NCBI GenBank assembly: GCA_947466405.1
Contig: CANICR010000004.1
Coordinates: forward strand, 1-48,906
Length of the DNA stretch: 48,906 nucleotides
From: Chitinophagaceae bacterium
Lineage (GTDB): Bacteria > Bacteroidota > Bacteroidia > Chitinophagales > Chitinophagaceae
Direction of reading: 5' to 3'
Part shown: in pieces, positions 14,048-17,167 of the stretch
Position numbering within the stretch: position 1 is the first letter of the stretch
Layout of the letters: each line of letters starts with the position of its first letter
The notes under the pieces: generated by a model
Database searches by the model: none
Told to the model about the DNA's origin: nothing
Seen by the model: the letters and a program-made list of their open reading frames with translations, nothing else
Made by a program: the position numbers and the translations under genes

Positions 14048-15277
14048 TTAAACCAGCATCGTAACTGGGTTTTCTATGAATTTTTTTAAAGTTTGTAGGA
14101 AAGAAGCGGCAACAGCACCATCTACACTTCTATGGTCACAACTCAAAGTAACTTTCATTACATTAGTTACATCAAATCCACTTTCTTTTTTAACTACCAC
14201 TTCTTTTATTTTACCAACAGCAAGTATGCAGGAATCTGGAGGATTTATGATGGCGGTAAATTCTTCAATATCCATCATTCCAAGATTAGAAATAGTGAAA
14301 GTATTGCCACTAAATTCTGCCGGTTGAATTTTTTTATCTTTAGCTTTTGTATATAAACTTTTTGTTTCAGCGGCTATTTGTGATAATGATTTTTGATCCG
14401 CGAATTTTATTACAGGAACAATCAATCCGTCTGGCATTGCCACAGCAGAACCAATGTGAATATGATGGTTACGGCGAATGAAATCATTCATCCAGCTACT
14501 GTTTACATCGGGATGTTGACGCAACGCTGCTGCTGAAGCTTTGATGATCATATCATTGAACGAAACCTTTACTGGACTGATATCATTTATTGAAACTCTC
14601 GCTAACATAGCATTATCCATATTGATTTCCATCGTCAGATAAAAATGAGGCGCAGTGAACATACTTTCGCTTAGTCTTCTTGCAATAGTTTTACGCATTT
14701 GAGTTAGTGTGATATCTGTATATCCTTCCTCTCCATTTGCAATAAAATTAATAACCGGAGCAACAGTTTCTTTTCTATCAGCAGAAGTCGGACTATAATT
14801 ATCAATATCTTTTTTAATTACCCTGCCACCATCTCCACTTCCCGATAATTTTGTAATATCAATACCTTTATCAGCTGCAATTTTTTTTGCTAATGGGGAT
14901 GCTTTTATTCTTTCATCATCATTGGTTGTTAAATTATTTTCTGATTGAATAGGTTGACTCATTGAAGGTGCAGCTTTTACCTCTTCTTTTGTAGATGCAG
15001 AAGTAGGCATTTCTGTAAGAAGTGATTTAAAATCTTCCCCTTCTTTACCAACTACGGCCAATATGCCATCAACTACTACAGCATTACCAGCATCAACACC
15101 AATATGAAGCAATACGCCCTCATTATAACTCTCAAGTTCCATAGTGGCTTTATCAGTTTCCACATCAGCTAAAACGTCACCTGGTTTTATTTTATCACCC
15201 ACTTTTTTATTCCAAGCAATAATTTTTCCTTCAGTCATCGTATCGCTCAAACGGGGCATTCTTATTACCTCAGCCAT
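14048..15277 (-). CDS. Dihydrolipoamide acetyltransferase (E2) of the pyruvate dehydrogenase complex
   Basis: 409 aa. It transfers the acetyl group from lipoyl-lysine to CoA. One lipoyl domain covers residues 1-80 with the lipoylated lysine in VETDKATMELE (Lys43). A flexible Ser/Glu/Asn linker follows, then the peripheral-subunit-binding domain (ASPLAKKIAADKGIDITKL), a second linker, and the catalytic chloramphenicol-acetyltransferase-like domain with active-site CDHRSVDGAVAASF (His about 382). The opening sequence EVIRMPRLSDTMTEG is of the pyruvate dehydrogenase type rather than the 2-oxoglutarate type, though paralog assignment is not certain. E1 and E3 genes are not next to it. A strong terminator follows. 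Confidence 0.92.
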   Translation of the reverse strand: MAEVIRMPRLSDTMTEGKIIAWNKKVGDKIKPGDVLADVETDKATMELESYNEGVLLHIGVDAGNAVVVDGILAVVGKEGEDFKSLLTEMPTSASTKEEVKAAPSMSQPIQSENNLTTNDDERIKASPLAKKIAADKGIDITKLSGSGDGGRVIKKDIDNYSPTSADRKETVAPVINFIANGEEGYTDITLTQMRKTIARRLSESMFTAPHFYLTMEINMDNAMLARVSINDISPVKVSFNDMIIKASAAALRQHPDVNSSWMNDFIRRNHHIHIGSAVAMPDGLIVPVIKFADQKSLSQIAAETKSLYTKAKDKKIQPAEFSGNTFTISNLGMMDIEEFTAIINPPDSCILAVGKIKEVVVKKESGFDVTNVMKVTLSCDHRSVDGAVAASFLQTLKKFIENPVTMLV

Positions 15278-15391: not shown

Positions 15392-17167
15392 TTATAGCTC
15401 TAATTTTAGTTTTTCCTTTAATTCTTTGATAAAAGGATATTGCTCAGAAAGTATTTTATACAGCTCTTTATTCCCAATAGTCTTTATTTCAGCATTCTTT
15501 TCAGATTCTTTTTCTTCAATTGTTAACTGATATTTTATCAATTTATTATTAAAGAATTGTTGTAAATGGTCAATTAAATTAACCCGCTCTGATTCAATAA
15601 ACTTTAGTTGAATATTACTTTCAGTGATTATATTAAATGAGTTATCATCAACAATTAATAATGTGGCTAGTTTGAAATTAGTAACGGCTGAATGATTTTT
15701 ATTATTGATAAGCTTTTCAATATAGGATTCCCATGCTTGATTTAATAAAGGTATATCTAATACTCGCTTAATAAGCGGCTGATCATTTTTATTAGCCAGC
15801 TGTTGACGAATCTTAGATAATGAACCTAGTTTAGTTGTATTATTATCTGTAATTGTTTTTGTTGGAATGGCACTAGTATTCTGAATCTCAATATGATTAG
15901 GCGCAGACTCTATTACTAATTTTGCTGCGGTTGGTTTTTCTAATTTTATAGTTACCTTTTTTTGGCTGTTATCATTGATTGCAATAACGGGCAATGATTT
16001 AAAGGATATTGCTTTAGCGGAGTCAGTTATTTTTTTTTTTGAAATGCCTTCTTCATTTATTGTCAACTCTAATGCTTGCTTCAAGTAGCTAAGCTTTATC
16101 AACAAAAGTTCAATATGTAATTTCTTGTTTCTTGATTGCTTGTATTGAATGATGCCTTCGCTGATGATGTTTAATGAAGTGATAAGCCAGCCTGTGTCAG
16201 TATTTTTTGCATTTTCCAAATATTTAGGTTTAAAATCATCGGCAACTTCCAATAATACAGTTGCTTTTGGATCTTTACAAACCATAATATTTCTAATAAA
16301 CTCTGCGAACCCTTCCAGAAGCGCATCACCTTCAAATCCTTTTTGATTGATTTCATCAAATAAAAGCAGGGCATCAGCAACCTGTTGTTGATATGCGTAT
16401 TCTAATAATTTGAAATAATAATCTTCATCAAGAATATTTAAGTGCTCCAGTGTATTTAAATAAGTTAGGTTACCTCCAGTAAAACTAACTATCTTATCAA
16501 GTATACTCAAGGCATCTCTTAAACAACCTTCACTTTTTTGAGCAATCACATGTAATCCTGCTTTTTCGGCACTAATTTTTTCTTTTTGGGTGATATATTC
16601 TAAATGTTCAACTGTGTCATTTGTGGTAATTCTTTTAAAATCAAATATCTGGCATCGACTTAAAATCGTTGGAAGTATTTTATGTTTTTCAGTAGTAGCT
16701 AAGATAAATATGGCATAGGGTGGTGGTTCCTCTAATGTTTTTAAAAAAGCATTAAAGGCATTGGTACTAAGCATATGAACCTCATCAACAATATATACTT
16801 TGTAGGCACCTGCCTGTGGAGCAAATCTTACTTGATCAACTAATGCTCGAATATCTTCAACAGAATTATTGCTTGCTGCATCCAGTTCATGCACATTAAA
16901 TGAACTGCCATTATCAAAAGAAATACAGCTATTACATTTATTACAAGCTTCTCCATCTTTATCTTTATGCTCACAGTTGATTGTCTTTGCCAGGATTCTG
17001 GCACAAGTTGTTTTTCCAACACCCCTAGGTCCACAAAATAAAAAAGCATGAGCTAATTGATTATTATTAATGGCATTTTTAAGGGTAGTTGTAATATGAG
17101 ATTGACCAATTACGGTTGTAAAGTTTTGTGGCCTGTATTTTCTCGCTGAAACAATAAATTTATCCAT
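15392..17167 (-). CDS. dnaX: DNA polymerase III subunits gamma and tau (DnaX)
   Basis: 591 aa. This is the clamp-loader ATPase that opens the beta clamp and, as tau, links polymerase and helicase. The AAA+ domain begins RKYRPQNFTTVIGQ, with Walker A GPRGVGKTT (46-53), a four-Cys zinc module (Cys65, 75, 78, 81), Walker B VYIVDEVHML and the conserved LEEPPPYAIFILATT. Domain III ends near residue 370. An 11-A run then encodes KKK at 377-379, and the remaining 210 residues form the divergent tau tail. Slippage at the A run would give a 379-381 aa gamma form (see the separate feature). A TAAATTTG box lies 34 nt upstream of the ATG. Confidence 0.95.
   Translation of the reverse strand: MDKFIVSARKYRPQNFTTVIGQSHITTTLKNAINNNQLAHAFLFCGPRGVGKTTCARILAKTINCEHKDKDGEACNKCNSCISFDNGSSFNVHELDAASNNSVEDIRALVDQVRFAPQAGAYKVYIVDEVHMLSTNAFNAFLKTLEEPPPYAIFILATTEKHKILPTILSRCQIFDFKRITTNDTVEHLEYITQKEKISAEKAGLHVIAQKSEGCLRDALSILDKIVSFTGGNLTYLNTLEHLNILDEDYYFKLLEYAYQQQVADALLLFDEINQKGFEGDALLEGFAEFIRNIMVCKDPKATVLLEVADDFKPKYLENAKNTDTGWLITSLNIISEGIIQYKQSRNKKLHIELLLIKLSYLKQALELTINEEGISKKKITDSAKAISFKSLPVIAINDNSQKKVTIKLEKPTAAKLVIESAPNHIEIQNTSAIPTKTITDNNTTKLGSLSKIRQQLANKNDQPLIKRVLDIPLLNQAWESYIEKLINNKNHSAVTNFKLATLLIVDDNSFNIITESNIQLKFIESERVNLIDHLQQFFNNKLIKYQLTIEEKESEKNAEIKTIGNKELYKILSEQYPFIKELKEKLKLEL
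16030..16040 (-). other. A11 candidate slippage site in dnaX producing a gamma subunit
   Basis: The coding strand carries 11 consecutive As (TCA, nine As, then ATA), encoding S-KKK-I at residues 376-380, just after the clamp-loader domains. Removing one A gives TCA AAA AAA AAA TAA, an immediate stop (379 aa). Adding one A gives ...AAA AAT AAC TGA (381 aa). Thermus dnaX makes gamma by transcriptional slippage on an A9 run, so the mechanism has a precedent. That it operates here is inference. Confidence 0.6.

Follow-up and report, generated by a model that had tools for sequence, protein, structure and literature searches.

The dnaX gene in a 48,906-nucleotide stretch of a Chitinophagaceae genome (GenBank assembly GCA_947466405.1, contig CANICR010000004.1; hereafter, the window) carries 11 consecutive A nucleotides in its coding strand, which raises the question of whether slippage at this run allows one gene to yield both the tau subunit of DNA polymerase III and a short gamma subunit. 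The gene (positions 15392–17167, minus strand) encodes a tau protein of 591 amino acids (aa), and slippage would give a predicted gamma of 379–381 aa. Its product matches TIGR02397 with 434.7 bits, above the cut-off, has Pfam AAA, DNAX lid and domain III matches, and shares 36% identity with Escherichia coli clamp-loader structures in a fold comparison. The gene just downstream, also on the minus strand (14048–15277), is 2-oxoacid dehydrogenase E2-like.

The predicted slippage run occupies positions 16030–16040 of the minus strand (T11 on the plus strand), beginning at the third base of codon 376 and finishing within codon 380, which agrees with a preliminary description that placed it at residues 376–380. 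The frame arithmetic given there is likewise correct. Specifically, an mRNA with one A fewer (10 As) would end gamma at 379 aa at a TAA (16027–16029, minus strand), and an mRNA with one A more (12 As) would end it at 381 aa at a TGA (16023–16025, minus strand). The tau frame is open with 8, 11 or 14 As. The window dnaX is thus a single ORF, and not a gene whose tau is split over two template frames.

The run lies just past the part of the protein that tau and gamma would share. On the basis of Pfam, AlphaFold and alignment, the clamp-loader core, comprising domains I–III, spans residues 1–366 (16070–17167, minus strand). The Pfam domain III match extends to residue 364, and the end of E. coli domain III (residues 361–363) aligns with residues 364–366 here. 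In an AlphaFold model, order extends to a helix at residues 362–366, disorder covers residues 367–448, and residues 472–587 are folded again. The disordered segment (15824–16069, minus strand; pLDDT <50) corresponds to the tau linker and begins about 10 residues before the run. On the sense strand, an A-run of at least nine follows the core. The modelled C-terminal tau domain (15407–15754, minus strand) would be missing from gamma. A fold search with this domain gave nothing significant: DciA and DnaA domain I, which are KH-like, matched weakly, and a chain from an E. coli Pol III complex ranked 23rd. Because the core ends near residue 366 and the stops fall at 379–381, the predicted gamma would be almost exactly the clamp-loader core.

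Runs of this length are rare in the genome. The preliminary description had singled out the run as the longest homopolymer in any coding region; it is in fact the longest of the entire window, followed by two 9-base runs. The A count comes from a 188-contig, MAG-like draft assembly of 2.08 Mb, in which 14 A/T runs reach at least 10 bases and the dnaX run alone reaches at least 11. The nearest named relatives of this genome are Chitinophagaceae MAGs, Ferruginibacter among them, and its genus is approximately Ferruginibacter. Further A10/T10 runs lie in ORFs of the same genome (G000:C9:4161, G000:C12:24338, G000:C6:10325 and G000:C25:11822), two of which were tested as control runs. Neither of these two is conserved: at the homologous site in congeners, the longest A stretch is 2–6 bases.

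To place the run in an evolutionary context, we compared 233 distinct dnaX genes, each from a different genome, sampled from the genus out to the phylum. A run of A9–A12 occurs at the same site, just past the clamp-loader core, in 201 of the 233, a count of phylogenetically non-independent genes in which close matches are favoured at the genus and family levels. The lengths, which rest mostly on draft assemblies, are A9 in 56 genes, A10 in 129 (the mode), A11 in 15 and A12 in one. All 57 of the first-fetched family-level genes carry A8–A11 at codons 375–379. Outside the family, 41 of the 44 genes sampled at order level have the run, and outside the order, 65 of the 77 sampled at class level do. 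At phylum level the figure is 16 of 30, although this sample was partly hand-picked and its fraction is not a rate. The device is not universal, as 32 of the 233 genes lack an A9 or longer.

Conservation of this kind could reflect the protein and not the mRNA. A lysine tract might be kept for protein reasons, with the A-run following from AT-rich codon use and no slippage involved, and the near-invariance of K377 and K378 among 24 aligned proteins and the 33% GC content of the window fit this reading. However, AAA codons at the run lysines persist in 14 genes with GC3 of 0.6–0.92, 13 of which have A10, and the phase of the run relative to the codons varies among family dnaX genes. Codon choice at the run, measured against the AAA share of each gene, gives a log10 P of about −85 on an assumption of independence that relatedness violates. 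The stops and the relatives with tau in another frame, both considered below, also count against this reading, which we regard as very improbable. Chance or composition as the origin of the run was ruled out by the codon, stop and control-run tests; chance is excluded because the run is conserved in all 57 first-fetched family genes.

If slippage feeds gamma, then both frames other than that of tau should close soon after the run, and this is what we observe. In 198 of the 201 run-bearing genes, tau is open to just one run-length class out of three, and the remaining two frames hit a stop within a median of about 5–7 codons. Of the three exceptions, two lie at contig ends. Among genes with tau in one ORF, the frame reached with one A fewer has a stop within 10 codons in 91%, versus 41% at control sites, and the frame reached with one A more does so in 99%, versus 46%. 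Taking one such gene per family gives 94% versus 41% and 100% versus 49%, respectively. Each wrong-frame stop is enriched separately (84–100% within 8–10 codons versus 32–49% at control sites), which the lysine-tract reading does not account for. The preliminary description had considered termination in both directions unlikely to be chance and had proposed looking in related genera for a run of at least nine As with stops in both shifted frames. Conservation and the enrichment of wrong-frame stops over control sites bear out the first point, and both the run and its two stops are kept across the class. The lack of conservation in close relatives that the description had named as counting against it is thus not what the relatives show.

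These data leave the question of which enzyme slips. In E. coli, dnaX uses a −1 ribosomal frameshift at A_AAA_AAG, aided by an SD-like element and a stem-loop as stimulators. Like that gene, the window dnaX would give gamma and tau from one gene by truncation past the core, and ribosomes could in principle slip back on an A_AAA_AAA that is present in phase within the run and terminate at the TGA. The frame reached by a −1 shift indeed has the best-kept stop (the 99% given above), and some run-less lineages have an SD-like GGAGG upstream of A7G. Unlike the E. coli gene, however, the window run lacks the A_AAA_AAG heptamer, as a T comes next (codon ATA), and its flanks fold no better than shuffled sequences (z-scores of −0.18 and −0.50). 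The flanks of 99 genes show no conserved downstream structure, and none beyond that of control windows. SD-like four-letter motifs are mildly commoner upstream of the run (8% versus 2%) but are missing in most genes, and a regular SD-like element was not found as a feature of the group. Furthermore, the stop in the other frame is strongly enriched too, and the conserved run length of 9–12 exceeds a heptamer. Frameshifting of the E. coli type is therefore an unlikely source of gamma here.

A further indication that the run is recoded comes from relatives in which tau cannot be read directly from the template. The template carries tau in frame in 153 genes, but 39 genes need one extra A at the run and six need one A fewer, so that 45 relatives have a two-ORF form that leaves tau unreadable without recoding, a state at odds with a mere lysine tract. 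In L062, which belongs to the same genus as the window, the frame encoded by the template gives a 384-aa gamma, and tau is open solely in a different frame. The C-terminal part of tau is retained in the recoded frame in each of the 44 complete two-ORF genes (E values of 1e-8 to 1e-58). Among the two-ORF isolates is Chitinophagaceae bacterium LY-5 (L329), whereas the cultured species Flavihumibacter solisilvae and Segetibacter koreensis (L289 and L305) have one-ORF genes. Separate translation of the C-terminal part was rejected as an explanation in a search confined to ATG starts, although a GTG or TTG start may serve: none of the 44 has an ATG within 25 codons after the run, and most have none for 50–180 codons. 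If tau is needed, as what is known of the replicase suggests, recoding must occur at the run in two-ORF species. Since these relatives would recode at the run, the similar run in one-ORF species very probably slips as well.

The direction of recoding bears on the choice between polymerase and ribosome. Two-ORF genes with tau in the frame reached by a −1 shift are the commoner kind (39 of 45), and this 39:6 excess fits −1 ribosomal slippage; the six remaining genes require the opposite shift, which does not. Transcriptional slippage is favoured over ribosomal slippage because stops are enriched in both wrong frames and stimulators of ribosomal frameshifting are absent, and it fits with recoding in both directions and with the conserved length of 9–12. 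A ribosomal share in the slippage would also fit, given the excess of +1 states.

The template frame changes often among relatives. Parsimony on two quickly made trees requires at least 27 changes of state, compared with 37–44 for shuffled labels on one of the two, and states are mixed within 11 families and five genera. Three congeneric pairs are exactly one A apart in run length (L248 with A10 and L249 with A9; L033 with A10 and L062 with A11; L228 with A11 and L231 with A12). Long A-runs are hypermutable. The same point is made in PMC1088944. Such pairs could also arise if slippage acted on the DNA, with the run as a contingency locus that toggles tau within a population and the two-ORF assemblies being off variants or assembly errors. 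However, two-ORF genes are common, or have become fixed, in several families (in f77, for example, they make up 9 of 11), and one-contig genomes have them as well (for example, that of L249, G520). Tau is expected to be indispensable to replicase coupling, and a purely harmful tract would be purged, so we consider a contingency locus extremely improbable.

Taken together, the sequence evidence makes it highly likely that the A11 run of the window dnaX is a programmed transcriptional slippage site. The slippage reading of the preliminary description is thereby supported, through conservation of the run and through two-ORF relatives in which tau would need recoding. In this mechanism, RNA polymerase would slip on A11 to produce dnaX mRNAs with varied A counts. 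Those with 11 ± 3n As would encode full tau. On the remainder, translation would terminate only a few codons later and yield gamma, a bare core of 379–381 aa that lacks both the linker and the C-terminal domain of tau. The predicted masses of the two forms are about 42 and 66 kDa, and gamma chains of the window species would end in GISKKK or GISKKKNN.

On balance, we lean towards a broader model in which slippage is so strong in Chitinophagaceae and the wider class that the downstream template frame is selectively near-neutral. Indels of a single A or of other kinds would then let an essential gene drift among the one-ORF state and the two kinds of two-ORF state, with selection keeping the run at 9–12 and a stop in each wrong frame. 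If this model is correct, the encoded frame would hardly matter as long as the three-frame arrangement is kept.

The mechanism itself has precedents. Thermus thermophilus dnaX undergoes transcriptional slippage on A9 (Larsen 2000, as described in PMC1088944 and PMC5009743), a precedent that the preliminary description had cited correctly. The window gene resembles Thermus dnaX in having one tau ORF, a long A-run, near stops in both other frames and, as predicted here, gamma made from slipped mRNAs. Thermus belongs to another phylum, however, and its A9 lies about seven-eighths through the gene, whereas the window A11 lies about two-thirds through and would leave gamma with only the core; unlike in Thermus, the template frame also varies among the relatives of the window dnaX. 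In the GeneTack survey (PMC3711429, 2013), 17 dnaX genes were of two-ORF form, nine of them with 10 As, and slippage by the polymerase was put forward as the cause. Several relatives have exactly that form, with a long A-run, gamma in the template frame and tau recoded, although the window gene itself is one-ORF. Those 17 genes shift in one direction, whereas our set includes both directions and has one-ORF and two-ORF forms within single genera. A survey from 2005 left out genes like that of the window, in which slippage shortens the product.

The slippage mechanism is already known, and the new part is the evolutionary pattern. In a literature search that covered few subscription papers, we found no account of wide use in this group or of a drifting template frame, and both the near class-wide use and the drift appear to be undescribed. 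So far measured in the single genus Thermus and predicted for a few further ones, the mechanism would be extended to most sampled families of a large class. This pattern would imply that a short gamma has been under long-term selection in the group, which bears on the debate about whether gamma is needed. Between congeners one base apart, the standard product of one is the slipped product of the other, which provides a natural experiment. For annotation, apparent truncation or frameshifting of dnaX probably conceals an intact gene in many cases.

Several genes in the comparison depart from the common arrangement. One genome that also has a normal dnaX encodes a second DnaX-like protein (L081, G037:C29:7654–8850), which is 34% identical to the window protein and lacks the run. 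Three Paludibacteraceae genes (L335, L336 and L338) have no long A-run near codon 368 and instead carry an A7G that is preceded by GGAGG at a distance of about 8–11 bases and has a −1 stop nearby; L181 resembles this arrangement. Their signal looks like that of an E. coli-type ribosomal frameshift and possibly marks a switch of mechanism. In Ginsengibacter hankyongi and its kin (L278 and L048), the run is an A8 followed by G, which places A_AAA_AAG in frame.
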